A model generated the notes under the pieces. The model had not been told where the DNA came from and made no database searches. It saw only the letters and a program-made list of their open reading frames with translations. Positions 14,141-20,085 of a stretch of 37,145 bases of DNA are shown here, piece after piece; the stretch's first letter is position 1; the number at the start of each line of letters is the position of its first letter. The translations under genes were made by a program, and so were the position numbers. This DNA comes from Caldilineaceae bacterium SB0662_bin_25 (lineage in GTDB: Bacteria > Chloroflexota > Anaerolineae > Caldilineales > Caldilineaceae): positions 1 to 37,145 of the forward strand of contig VXOE01000084.1 in NCBI GenBank assembly GCA_009840225.1, written 5' to 3'.

Positions 14141-14168
14141 TTGCATAACTCCTCGAAGTGCTTATAAT
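14141..14168 (+). promoter_or_regulatory. candidate promoter of the ilv-leu operon
   Basis: A perfect TATAAT lies at 14163-14168, with a weak -35 (TTGCAT, 14141-14146) 16 bases before it. Transcription would begin near 14175, about 45 bases before the Leu/Val/Ile leader ORF. Confidence 0.5.
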
Positions 14169-14220
14169 AGGGGCGAAGATATTTGCTAACAACTGCATTT
14201 GCAGCACTAAGCGGCTGAAA

Positions 14221-14313
14221 ATGAGTAGTATTTCTGTGTTGAACCTGCTTATTAGCCTTAGAGTCCTTCTTCTCGGCCTTGTAGCCCTTCTTGTAAGCGG
14301 CTCTCGGCCTTGA
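14221..14313 (+). CDS. ilv operon leader peptide (30 aa, Leu/Val/Ile-rich)
   Basis: A 30-codon ORF in which 16 residues are branched-chain amino acids: ten Leu, four Val, two Ile. The core, residues 15-25, reads VLLLGLVALLV. An in-frame TGA lies 6 bases before the ATG, so the ORF cannot be longer. It sits between a perfect -10 box and a terminator, upstream of ilvB, exactly where attenuator leader peptides occur in enteric and actinobacterial ilv operons. Its role would be to measure charged Leu, Val and Ile tRNA: ribosome stalling in the core decides whether the downstream terminator forms. No clear Shine-Dalgarno sequence is visible. Confidence 0.8.
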   Translation: MSSISVLNLLISLRVLLLGLVALLVSGSRP

Positions 14314-14391
14314 ATGGTTGGCGAAGGCAGGAGTCCAGAACATCGGACTCCATGCTCAGGTCAGTGCAGACCCTTCCTCAACCGGGAAGGG
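14276..14391 (+). promoter_or_regulatory. attenuator: alternative RNA stems before ilvB
   Basis: Three competing pairings can be drawn. Protector: GCCTT (14276-14280) and GCC (14284-14286), inside the leader core, pair with AAGGC (14324-14328) and GGC (14320-14322). Antiterminator: GGTTG..GAAGG (14316-14327) pairs with CCTTC..CAACC (14372-14383), ten of twelve positions. Terminator: 14371-14377 with 14385-14391. A separate hairpin (GGAGTCC 14330-14336 with GGACTCC 14345-14351, extended by GCA/TGC) sits in the antiterminator loop. A ribosome stalled in the Leu/Val codons breaks the protector and permits antitermination. One that reaches the stop at 14311 covers the antiterminator arm, so the terminator forms. 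Confidence 0.65.
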
Positions 14392-14400
14392 TTTTTCTTT
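14371..14400 (+). terminator. intrinsic terminator of the ilv attenuator
   Basis: CCCTTCC (14371-14377) pairs with GGAAGGG (14385-14391) around a 7-base loop and is followed by TTTTTCTTT. It lies about 140 bases before ilvB and 57 bases after the leader peptide stop. Confidence 0.82.
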
Positions 14401-14539
14401 AGTAGGAGAGTGTGTGTCGGGGAACAACCGGGGACTGCGGAGCATCTTAGGAGTGCGAATGCAGGAGCGCGGGAGCCCGGCCAAGTAGGTCTGACAGACG
14501 ATTTCAACAGAATGGGAGCCAGGAAGCAGGAGGCGACGG

Positions 14540-16330
14540 ATGGCACTTGCGAAGAGAGAACCGAAAAACAGCGGATACGACCTGGGCCCCCAGGAGATGA
14601 CCGGTTCAGAGATGATCTGGGAATCGCTTTTGAGGGAGGGCGTTCAGATTGTTTTCGGCCATCCGGGCGGAGCGATTTTGCCGGCTTACGACGCTCTGGC
14701 TGAGTATGAGGCGGACGGCCGCATCCATCACGTACTCGTGCGACACGAGCAGTGCGCGGCGCACATGGCCGACGGTTTTGCCAGGGCCACGGGCGATGTA
14801 GGCGTATGTATTGTGACGAGCGGTCCGGGGGCGACGAACCTAGTCACCGGGCTGGCGACGGCCCAGATGGACAGCGTGCCCGTAGTAGCGATCACGGGCC
14901 AGGTCCCGACAAGCTTGTTGGGTACGGACGCGTTTCAGGAGTCGGACGTTGTGGGCGTCTCACAGCCGGTGTGCAAGCACAACTATCTGGTGACGGATAT
15001 TGCGGAGCTGCCGTTGGTGATGAAAGAGGCGTTTTACATCGCTCGCGAAGGCCGTCCGGGCGTTGTACTGGTCGACATCTGCAAGGATGTTCAGATTGAG
15101 TCCGGGACATTTCGCTATGATTTCGAGATAAACCTGCCCGGTTTCGAGCCGTGGCCGGAATACAGCCCCGATGCCGTGCGTGAGGCGGCTGACCTGCTGA
15201 ACGAGTCCGAGCGTCCGCTGATTCTTGCGGGACACGGGATTCACCTGTCAAACACCAGTGACGAGCTGCTGCAGCTGGTCGAGAAGGCCGGAATACCGGT
15301 GGTGACGACGCTGCTCGGTACGGGCAACATTCCTGAGACGCACCCGTTAAGCCTGGGAATGGGCGGAATGCACGGTGAGGCATTCGCAAACCAGGCTGTT
15401 CAGGCCTGCGACGTGCTGGTTGCCATGGGCATGCGCTTCGACGACAGAATCACGGGACGGCTCGACCGATTCGCGGCCAACGCCAAGATCATTCACTTTG
15501 AACTCGACCGGGCTGAAGTCGGCAAGAACATCGTTCCCGATGTTGCCGTCGTAGGGGACCTGGCGGAGACGCTTCCGGCTTTCCTCCCTCAGGTCGAAGA
15601 GCGTCGCCACCAGGAATGGGTAGATACGCTGAACGGGTGGCGTTCTGAGACCGATGAGGCCGATATTATTCAGTTTGAAGTCGAAGAGCTGATTCCGCCC
15701 TTTGTGATTCGTCAATTGTGGCATGCTACAGAACAGACTGAGAAGCGTGTCATCGTCGTCACCGACGTTGGCCAGCACCAGATGTGGGAGAGCCAGTACT
15801 ATATTCATGAACACGCCGGGATGCTGCTCACGAGCGGTGGCCTAGGCACGATGGGCTATGCACTGCCGGCGGCACTCGGTGCGCAGATGTCCGACCCGGA
15901 GGCGCTGGTGTGGTGTGTTGCCGGTGACGGCGGGTTCCAAATGACTTTGCAGGAACTGGCCACGATCCAGCAGGAGAAGCTGCCAGTCAAGATTGCCATC
16001 ATCAATAACGGATTCCTGGGCATGGTGCGCCAGTGGCAGCAGATATTCTATGACAAGCGCTATGTGGGGACACCGATACTTTCCCCTGATTACGTCAAGC
16101 TTGCCGATGCTTACGACATCCCCGCTGCAGTGGTGCGACATCCCAGCGAGGTTGTGCCGGTGCTGGAGCAGGCGCACGCCACCGATGGGCCGTTCCTGGT
16201 TGATTTCCAGGTGAAAGAGGAAGTTAACGTCTATCCGATGGTGGCACCCGGCGCCGCGGTGGACGAACTGATCCGGCGACCGAAGCCGGGCTATGTTCAG
16301 GGATACAGCGGCGTGCAGCCGAGTTGGTAG
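14540..16330 (+). CDS. ilvB: acetolactate synthase, large (catalytic) subunit
   Basis: A thiamine-diphosphate enzyme joining two pyruvates, or pyruvate and 2-oxobutyrate, to the acetohydroxy acids of valine/leucine and isoleucine synthesis. It has 596 residues. The cofactor-activating Glu is E70 in [17 protein letters not shown], and the ThDP/Mg motif starts GDGG at 462-465 and ends in IINN. The C-terminal [14 protein letters not shown] segment matches true acetolactate synthases. An AGGAGG-like site (14528-14533) fixes the ATG. The N-terminal ~20 residues are a short extension. It is the first gene of the attenuated operon; the regulatory subunit follows after 91 bases. Confidence 0.96.
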
Positions 16331-16421: not shown

Positions 16422-16982
16422 ATGCAATACACACTTGTCGCCTGGATGCGCGATAAGCCCGGCGTCCTGAATCGGGTGTCCGGAATGCTGCGCAGGCGAA
16501 ACTTCAACATCGACAGTCTTCAGGTCAGCCATAGCGAGACGCCCGGCATCAGCCGCATGACCTTTGTCGTGGATGGCGACGAACGGGTGGCCGACCAGGT
16601 CGTCAAGCAGCTGCGGAAGGTAGTAGACGTCACCGCGGTGGAGGACATTACAAACCGGCTAGCCATCTTGCGTGAGCTGGCCCTGATTCGAGTCCGGACG
16701 ACTCCGGCGACGCGCGGGGAGATCATGCAGTTTGCCGAGATCTACCGGGCCCAAATCGTGGATGTCAACGCTGAGAATCTGGTCGTGCAAGCGGTTGGGA
16801 CGGAAGACAAGGTCGATTCGCTGATTGAACTGCTGCGCCCCTTCGGCATCGAGGAGATGGTGCGGACGGGCCGCGTTGCGTTGTGTCGCGGTGACGAGCG
16901 GCCCAAGCGGACCAAGCCGGCGACGTCGATATTCAAGGCGGCGGCAAGCCTCAATGGCAGTGGACACGGAGACCCAAAGTAG
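16422..16982 (+). CDS. ilvN: acetolactate synthase, small (regulatory) subunit
   Basis: A 186-residue regulatory subunit with an N-terminal ACT domain (about residues 1-80) that binds valine for feedback inhibition. Conserved stretches are [19 protein letters not shown] at the start and [10 protein letters not shown] near the end of the family domain. A C-terminal tail of about 30 residues is basic and poorly conserved. It stands between ilvB and ilvC, as in most bacterial ilv operons. The start is the ATG just before QYTLVAWM. Confidence 0.94.
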
Positions 16983-17131: not shown

Positions 17132-18133
17132 GTGGCAACCATCTATTATGAGAATGACGCTGACCTAGCGCGATTGGAAGGCAAGAAGATCGCGGTGATC
17201 GGCTACGGCAGCCAGGGCCATGCCCACGCTCTGAACATGAAGGACAGCGGCCAGGACGTACGGATCGGGTTGCACGAGGGCAGCCGCAGCAAGGCGAAGG
17301 CCGAAGCCGATGGTTTGCGGGTCGTAAGTGTGGCGGACGCGGCTCGCGAAGCCGATATGATTATGGTCGTCATCCCCGACCCGATCCAAGGCAAGGTATA
17401 CGAGGAGCAGATTCAACCCAATCTGGAGGCCGGCAACACGCTGATGTTCGCGCACGGTTTCAACGTACGCTACGGCTTTATCGTGGCACCCGATGACGTT
17501 GACGTGTCGATGGTAGCACCGAAAGCCCCCGGCCACAGGGTGCGGGAAGTCTTTACCGAAGGTTCAGGTGTGCCTGCGCTGGTTGCCATCCATCAGGACG
17601 CCTCCGGGAACGCGCTGGCCAACGCGCTCGCCTACGCCAAAGCGATCGGTTCGGCACGTGCAGGCGTATTGGAGACGACGTTTGCCGAGGAGACGGAGAC
17701 CGACCTGTTTGGCGAGCAGACGGTCCTTTGCGGCGGTGTCAGCGAACTGATCAAGGCCGGCTTTGAGATTCTTGTCGATGCCGGTTACCAACCTGAAATC
17801 GCTTACTTCGAATGCTTGCATGAACTTAAGCTGATTGTGGATCTTATGTATCAGGGCGGGTTGAACTACATGCGGTACAGCGTCAGTGATACTGCGGAAT
17901 GGGGCGACTATAAGAGCGGTCAACGCGTCATTACCGACGAGACCAAAGAGTCGATGCGGAAGATTTTGGCGGACGTCCAGTCGGGGGCTTTTGCCGAAGA
18001 GTGGATGGACGAGTACCACGGCGGCGGCAAGGTGTACTACGAGAGGCGCCGCAACGAGCAGAATCAGCAGTTGGAGAACGTGGGCAAGGAGTTGCGAAGG
18101 ATGATGACTTTCCTGGACGCAAAGGAAATCTAG
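17132..18133 (+). CDS. ilvC: ketol-acid reductoisomerase
   Basis: Isomerises and reduces acetohydroxy acids with NADPH and Mg2+, the second common step to valine, leucine and isoleucine. It has 333 residues, the usual class I length. The nucleotide-binding [10 protein letters not shown] is at residues 24-33, and the magnesium ligands D191 and E195 lie in ETDLFGEQ. The conserved C-terminal block includes [14 protein letters not shown]. It starts at GTG, fixed by GGAGGGG at 17122-17128. The 149 bases between ilvN and ilvC hold no gene that I can support. Confidence 0.96.
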
Positions 18134-18172: not shown

Positions 18173-18316
18173 ATGAACATGGATGACGGCCTTAGTGACC
18201 TTATTTTGCGCGCTGCGTCGTACTCCGCGCTCTCTACGTCCCCCGCCGCTCTGAGCGAGGGAGGACGAAACTGTCATCTGTTGAACAGATTCACCTCCGG
18301 AGGCATCTTGCCATGA
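18173..18316 (+). CDS. 47-aa ORF translationally coupled to leuA
   Basis: A 47-codon ORF preceded by a very strong ribosome site (AAAGGGGGTG directly before the ATG). It ends in TGA overlapping the leuA start as ATGA (18313-18316). It begins [17 protein letters not shown] and ends in a Gly/Ile/Leu tail; I recognise no family. Eight residues are Leu, not clustered enough for a confident leader-peptide call. The leuA ribosome site GGAGG (18299-18303) directly follows its complement CCTCC (18294-18298). That CCTCC could instead pair with an upstream GGAGG near 18270 inside this ORF. Translation of the ORF may therefore govern access to the leuA start. It could also be a chance frame. Confidence 0.5.
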
Positions 18317-20085
18317 CCAACACAATTGACGCACAGCAACCGGACGGGGCTCCCGAAGAGGACTTCTCGCCGATCGACATTGAACAGTTCCGATTGGGCG
18401 ACGTCGAACATTGGGCGAAGGGAGTTGCCCACGGCAATACGGTTCTCGTCTTTGACACGACGTTGCGCGATGGAGAGCAGTCGCCCGGCGCCACGTTGAA
18501 TGAGCAGGAGAAGCTTGAAATAGCCCGCCAGCTGGCTCGCCTGGGAATCGACATTATGGAGGCCGGTTTTCCGGCTGCCTCACCCGGCGACCTAGCCGCT
18601 GTGAAGCGCATCGCAGAAACTGTAGGCCGGTCTCCCCGCAGGGACGACGACGGCAATGTAGGTGCGCCGCCTATCATTGCCGGCCTGGCCAGGGCGAATA
18701 AGGACGACATAGACAAAGCCTGGGAAGCGGTACAGGGGGCGGTTCGACCCCGAATCCATACGTTTCTCGCCACCAGCGACATTCACATGCAGCACAAGCT
18801 GCGTATGTCGCCCAACGAAGTGCTGGAAACCGTGGGGGACATGGTGCAGTATGCCCGCAGCCTCTGCGAGAACGTCGAGTTCAGCCCTGAGGATGCTGGC
18901 CGGAGCGACCCGGCGTTTCTGGTAAAGGTGTGTAGCGTTGCGGTACAGGCGGGCGCCACCACACTGAACATCCCGGATACTGTTGGCTACACAACGCCGG
19001 AGGAGTTTGGTGACCTGATCGAGTATCTGCGCGAGAACGTGGAGGGCGGCAAGGACGTAATCTTCAGCGTTCATTGCCACAATGACCTGGGGCTGGCGAC
19101 GGCAAATACGCTGGCCGGTGTGCAGAACGGCGCCCGCCAGATCGAGGTAACCATTAACGGTATCGGCGAACGGGCCGGAAATACGAGCCTGGAGGAGACG
19201 GTGATGGCGTTGTATACACGCCAATCCGTATTCGACCTGCGCACCAATATCCGCAGCCAGGAAATCCATCGCAGCAGCGACATGGTCAGCCGGTATACCG
19301 GTATGGTGATCCAGCCAAACAAGGCGATCGTTGGGACCAACGCGTTTGCGCACGAGGCGGGCATCCACCAGGACGGTATGCTGAAGAACAAGCGCACCTA
19401 CGAAATCATGGACGCCGACACGATCGGATTGCACCAGAGCCGTCTGGTGCTCGGCAAGCATTCGGGCCGCCATGCGCTGGGCGTGCGCCTGCAGGAGATG
19501 GGCTACCACCTGGAACGGGAAGAGTTGAACGAGGTGTTTTCACGTTTCAAGGACCTGGCCGATAAGAAGAAGACGGTCACCGACGCAGACATCGAGGCGC
19601 TGGTGGCGGATGAACTGTATCAGCCGATAGAAATTTGGGAGCTAAAGGGGATACAGGTACAGTGCGGGACAAATATGACGCCGACTGCTGTGGTTACTCT
19701 GCGAAATAACGAGACAGAAGAGGAGATCACTGAGGCCAGCTTTGGGGCGGGTCCGGTGGATGCCGTCTACAGTTGTATAGATAAGGTCGTGCAACAGCCG
19801 AATGAGCTGACAGAGTTTCTGGTGCAGGCGGTGACTGAGGGGATTGACGCCAATGGCGACGTGACTGTCAGAATCGAGGCGCCGGAGAGCCGGGGTCATA
19901 GCAGGACGGCGCAAGGGCGTCCGCGACGGCGGCTTTTCAGTGGGCGCGGGGTTGACACGGATATTATCGTGGCGAGTACGAAGGCCTACCTGCAGGCGTT
20001 GAATAAGCTTTGCGCGGCTGATGAGGATGACGCTGAGGTTGCGATCGCGGCGGGTGATTCAGAGGTGGCTACGGTAGGTATCTAA
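18313..20085 (+). CDS. leuA: 2-isopropylmalate synthase
   Basis: Condenses acetyl-CoA with 2-oxoisovalerate, the first committed step to leucine. It has 590 residues, longer than the common ~515. The catalytic barrel opens with [13 protein letters not shown] at about residue 50, and the metal ligands are H254 and H256 in HCHND. The [14 protein letters not shown] motif follows. The C-terminal ~130 residues resemble the leucine-binding regulatory domain, so feedback inhibition is expected. Extra length comes from a ~45-residue acidic N-terminal extension, a short insert near residues 110-120 ([10 protein letters not shown]) and an acidic tail. The ATG overlaps the end of the 47-codon ORF. A strong terminator follows. 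Confidence 0.95.

Follow-up and report, generated by a model that had tools for sequence, protein, structure and literature searches.

The ilvB locus and its leader ORF

We analyzed a 37,145-nt stretch of DNA (the window) held in a MAG of 5.6 Mb. The original prediction, made from the letters alone, had raised the possibility of a Chloroflexota-like genome, and the closest named genomes by IlvB indeed belong to the Caldilineaceae, phylum Chloroflexota. The features found upstream of and within the branched-chain amino acid gene cluster are as follows.

14141..14168, + strand: promoter, read from the sequence (weak -35 TTGCAT, 16-nt spacer, -10 TATAAT)
14221..14313, + strand: leader peptide ORF, 30 codons with 16 Leu/Val/Ile (ATG at 14221, TGA at 14311-14313)
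14368..14399, + strand: intrinsic terminator (3:4) and U-run, from a terminator scan (stem at 14368-14394, then the U-run)
14540..16330, + strand: ilvB, acetolactate synthase large subunit, the regulated gene (TIGR00118, E value of 1.5e-215)
16422-16982, + strand: ilvN, presumed to be in the same operon as ilvB
17132-18133, + strand: ilvC, presumed to be in the same operon as ilvB
18313-20085, + strand: leuA, presumed to be in the same operon as ilvB

Cotranscription of ilvB-ilvN-ilvC-leuA is presumed from gene order and spacing, and these downstream genes make the same amino acids that enrich the leader ORF. In the putative promoter, the -10 TATAAT lies at 14163-14168 and the -35 TTGCAT at 14141-14146; the latter has only three of six consensus matches and was too weak to be called in a consensus promoter scan. 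The motifs GTTGCA and TATAATA were kept across 16 genus members in the genus alignment.

The leader ORF, which encodes the 30-amino-acid peptide MSSISVLNLLISLRVLLLGLVALLVSGSRP with 16 Ile, Leu, or Val (ILV) residues, is present as originally described, between the TATAAT box and the intrinsic terminator and 5′ of ilvB, and the terminator separates it from this first structural gene. When positions 14141-14539 were dinucleotide shuffled, an ORF with at least 9/12 ILV appeared in 5 of 3,000 shuffles, and 0 of 3,000 gave an ORF with 16 or more ILV at a density of at least 50%; only the leader ORF reaches such an ILV density among the 539 small ORFs in the window. A chance origin of the ILV-rich ORF is improbable, and its conservation in relatives puts the leader far beyond chance.

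Competing RNA structures around the stop codon and the terminator

Besides the terminator, five RNA elements were delineated in and behind the leader ORF.

14275..14309, + strand: P1, in-ORF hairpin of ILV codons (GGCC..GCC / GGC..GGCC)
14316..14327, + strand: arm 2, the antiterminator 5′ arm GGTTGGCGAAGG, just 3′ of the stop codon
14330..14351, + strand: hairpin GGAGTCC..GGACTCC between arms 2 and 3 in the window genus (predicted probability, about 1.0)
14359..14372, + strand: P3 hairpin GGTC-AGTGCA-GACC, which stacks in the antiterminator; its 3′ strand is common to the terminator base
14372..14383, + strand: arm 3, the terminator 5′ arm and loop CCTTCCTCAACC, partner of arm 2 (from pairing and compensatory changes)

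P1 was more stable than codon-order shuffles (z < -1 in 47/49 leaders; mean z, -3.1), and its 5′ and 3′ strands covary, with 0/5,000 permutations as good. The sequence CTCGGCCTTG is present twice in the leader ORF, at 14274-14283 and 14303-14312, the second copy extending into the stop codon, and P1 therefore pairs GGCC with GGCC in the window genus. The stem at 14330..14351 is largely retained, with changes, in the genus alignment. In folds of nascent RNA ending after arm 3, P3 had a probability of 0.96-0.99; it gives no covariation information, because three of its four pairs are invariant in 32 sequences.

In the antiterminator (2:3), arm 2 is base paired with the loop and 5′ arm of the terminator (3:4), and the two structures are mutually exclusive. 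Compensatory changes between arm 2 and the terminator loop were found across the Anaerolineae (A-U in L073, U-A in L080, U-A and C-G in L159, and C-G in L179), at loop positions that pair solely in the antiterminator. Among the Chloroflexota leaders, arm 2 matches the arm 3 of its own leader better than those of other leaders (24/20,000 permutations as good), and with Armatimonadota leaders added, 0/20,000 permutations fit as well, the arms for this test having been chosen by position and by hand. Within the Caldilineaceae alone, we found no double changes in the 2:3 helix; the pairing is kept there, with one-sided changes only. Because the region is G-rich, no information could be drawn from z-scores comparing the energy of arm 2 with that of shuffled sequences.

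These changes bear on whether the hairpin is a plain constitutive terminator behind an unrelated small gene, with ilvB transcribed from its own downstream promoter. The approximately 140 nt from the terminator to ilvB would leave room for another promoter, but no promoter-like site was found on the + strand in this gap, and a plain terminator would have no use for an arm 2 that is conserved, complementary to its loop, and subject to compensatory changes. We regard this explanation as scarcely credible.

The original prediction had drawn protector, antiterminator, and terminator stems. The latter two held up, and the protector (1:2) did not: pairing of the P1 5′ strand with arm 2 was matched by 475 of 5,000 permutations and is thus unsupported. 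The protector pairing GCUUCU/AGAAGC, plausible by eye in some relatives, failed the permutation test.

Conservation of the leader and its distribution

The leader, arm 2, P3, and the terminator were kept in 16/16 genus members compared and are also conserved in about 50 Caldilineaceae/Anaerolineae leaders, so that the ILV-rich ORF and the competing stems persist both in the genus and across the Anaerolineae; the lack of conservation that would have refuted the original prediction was not seen. In the genus alignment, the promoter, the ORF, GGTTGGCGAAGGC, AGGTCAGTGCAGACC, and the terminator change little; the first half of the ORF drifts. Leader peptides elsewhere in the Caldilineaceae/Anaerolineae differ yet are ILV-rich (e.g., MKSHSDSLLSVVVSGLVVVLVDDLGLCPVGEESRAL and MIFALVLISLLIVELLVIVRREPILVGRLMR), and most of them carry V-G-E or V-G-R near the C terminus, which corresponds to arm 2 as codons (V-G-E in relatives with the ORF running on). 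Most members of the window genus have an earlier stop codon, with the same arm 2 retained immediately 3′ of it, and the constraint there is therefore on the RNA and not on the peptide.

The conserved motifs near the C terminus, LVALLVSG in the genus and P-x-x-V-G-E/R in the family, would speak for nascent-peptide arrest, i.e., a conserved C-terminal stretch that stalls the ribosome and senses something besides tRNA charging. However, V-G-E/R is explained by arm 2 pairing and is kept as RNA behind the stop in the window genus, and the remaining peptide varies but stays ILV-rich, which makes arrest of this kind highly improbable.

A Shine-Dalgarno-like sequence was sought at 14175-14220 and before the leader ATGs of relatives, and none was obvious in the window or in most relatives; ilvB, unlike the leader ORF, is preceded by GGAGG. 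Translation of the leader is therefore assumed. The ILV-rich reading frame is kept in relatives even with no obvious Shine-Dalgarno sequence before the leader start, and no third-position excess was found in the first 18 codons of the leader among the 11 closest species (changes, 9, 6, and 8). The missing Shine-Dalgarno sequence, together with the strong conservation of P1, P3, and arm 2 as RNA in the genus, synonymous positions included, would suit a riboswitch or protein-controlled leader, where the choice between antiterminator and terminator is made by a ligand or an RNA-binding protein and the presence of the short ORF is incidental. Yet the ILV-rich frame is kept in nearly all leaders while the sequence changes freely, arm 2 stays near the stop codon, and no Rfam riboswitch matched. 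We consider such control very unlikely.

The distribution of the element was assessed with a covariance model, which spans only the stretch from the end of P1 to the U-run, so that most leader ILV codons fall 5′ of it. It matched 76/298 genomes of the class Anaerolineae, in 53/186 genera. An ILV-rich leader ORF was found in 29 of the 40 class matches inspected; the other 11 lack an ILV leader and were set aside as chance matches, so that at this threshold the number of true cases is at most 76 genomes. No second copy was detected above noise in the genome of the window, which gave a single match. Outside the class, the model returned essentially nothing: the sole match, L183 from another Chloroflexota class, is a chance terminator with neither an ILV leader nor an ilv gene. 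As this match is false, we make no model-based claim beyond the Anaerolineae. A scan of the genome for His-run leaders gave nothing interpretable.

The downstream genes, where readable, were ilvB or ilvD (five were matched to NCBIfam and the others called by eye, with six left out of the tally). In many other Anaerolineae families, ilvD, not ilvB, follows the element (L142, L145, L146, L147, L152, L155, L171-L176, and L178). Six loci (L144, L148, L151, L156, L159, and L179) have a clear ILV-rich leader and attenuator, and the next gene was not recognized as ilv in the stretch read; they are possibly other members of a branched-chain amino acid regulon, or their contigs are too short to tell.

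ILV-rich leader ORFs without an Rfam match were also seen at ilvB loci of Armatimonadota located by way of IlvB (L097, L098, L101, L104, L105, and L107). At most a few bases 3′ of the stop codon, these leaders carry a CCGGGAAG-like arm with complementarity to the loop and 5′ arm of the terminator, which suggests a separate-looking ilvB attenuator.

Proposed mechanism of attenuation

We modeled the effect of ribosome position by folding nascent RNA whose 3′ end lay just behind arm 3. For ribosome positions as far as codon 27, the probability of the antiterminator was ~0.88; it fell to 0.49 at codon 29 and to 0.00 once the stop codon was reached. In 49 of the 49 leaders folded in this way, the antiterminator formed with the ribosome at the ILV codons and was lost at the stop codon, although the flips are partly built in, since the model assumed the footprint and barred RNA upstream of the ribosome from pairing. 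When full-length transcripts were folded at equilibrium, the terminator was favored over the antiterminator for almost all ribosome positions; readthrough (the ON state) must therefore be kinetic.

The observed and computed features, i.e., the ORF, its conservation, the competing pairings, the compensatory changes, the position relative to the stop codon, and the gene context, are best explained, with very high probability, by ribosome-mediated attenuation that controls transcription of the branched-chain amino acid synthesis genes. This is in line with the classical attenuation before ilvB originally predicted, whose ORF, antiterminator, and terminator are all conserved. From these features we infer translation of the ORF, ribosome stalling, termination in the cell, and a role for P1. 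When charged Leu, Val, or Ile tRNA is scarce, the ribosome would stall on ILV codons, at about codons 13-25, leaving arm 2 (14316-14327) free to pair with the emerging arm 3 (14372-14383), stacked with P3. With arm 3 engaged by arm 2, the terminator could not form, and ilvBNC-leuA would be transcribed. When amino acids are plentiful, the ribosome would reach the stop codon at 14311-14313 with its footprint covering arm 2; arm 3 would then pair with arm 4, and transcription would end at about 14396-14400.

According to the fold models, the terminating ribosome itself probably masks arm 2, doing the job of a protector stem. In leaders with arm 2 starting 25-34 nt before the stop-codon end, some of this arm may become exposed again at the rear of the ribosome. 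P1 probably pauses RNA polymerase or keeps the ribosome and polymerase in step.

Relation to known leader-peptide attenuators

No Rfam leader or riboswitch family reached its gathering score when the window and 18 related loci were searched; rnk_pseudo and Phe_leader hits were far below threshold and overlapped only the region around the terminator. According to Naville and Gautheret (2010), the only demonstrations of such leaders known to them prior to their own case in Firmicutes came from Proteobacteria and Actinobacteria (PMC2965389). We found no earlier report of leader-peptide attenuation in Chloroflexi in the literature searched, which did not cover the survey Lopatovskaya 2010, and a prior mention is possible. 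Together with the lack of an Rfam match, this indicates a known mechanism in a lineage for which no earlier report was found.

It appears reasonably likely that the element represents an undescribed RNA family, a widespread branched-chain amino acid attenuator of Anaerolineae in which the stall codons form their own hairpin, the last leader codons (V-G-E/R) are the antiterminator arm, and the terminating ribosome replaces the protector; the similar, separately arranged leaders of Armatimonadota would then point to an old device, or one that evolved repeatedly, beyond the phyla in which it has been described. The comparative evidence is strong enough for defining a new RNA family, and leader-peptide attenuation of branched-chain amino acid genes is extended to the Chloroflexota, class Anaerolineae. 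A largely uncultured class thereby gains a regulatory readout, from a small ORF of the type that gene callers tend to miss.

The enteric attenuators, such as those of ilvGMEDA, ilvBN, leu, and trp in Escherichia coli, have a leader ORF with many codons for the regulated amino acids, upstream stall codons, an antiterminator competing with an intrinsic terminator, a biosynthetic operon as the target, and a 1:2 protector stem. The Anaerolineae leader shares the ORF with the regulated amino acids, the stall codons, the antiterminator versus terminator choice, and the biosynthetic target. It differs in that arm 2 coincides with the last ORF codons or follows them directly, no 1:2 protector is supported, a separate in-ORF hairpin (P1) is present, and no Rfam leader matches. 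The 1:2 protector stem is not treated here as essential to the class of ribosome-mediated attenuators.

Among the motifs upstream of ilvB in other bacteria, ilvB-OMG and the Leptospira ilvB motif likewise have uORFs rich in branched-chain amino acids; compared by description only, they are threonine-rich too, unlike the Anaerolineae leader (PMC10272879). Actinobacterial ilvB candidates also combine an ILV-rich ORF with a terminator before ilvB, but their ORF overlaps the terminator, the authors left open how they are regulated, and codon replacements in Streptomyces coelicolor were without effect (Seliverstov 2005, PMC1262725); in contrast to these, the Anaerolineae leader has a conserved antiterminator. 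The Corynebacterium ilvB-II motif/ilvBNC uORF, whose reporter responds to rich versus minimal medium, resembles it in the ILV-rich uORF before ilvB and in the terminator and antiterminator (PMC10272879). However, the Corynebacterium antiterminator uses part of the loop of its own P1, whereas arm 2 of the Anaerolineae leader, from another phylum, lies 3′ of P1.
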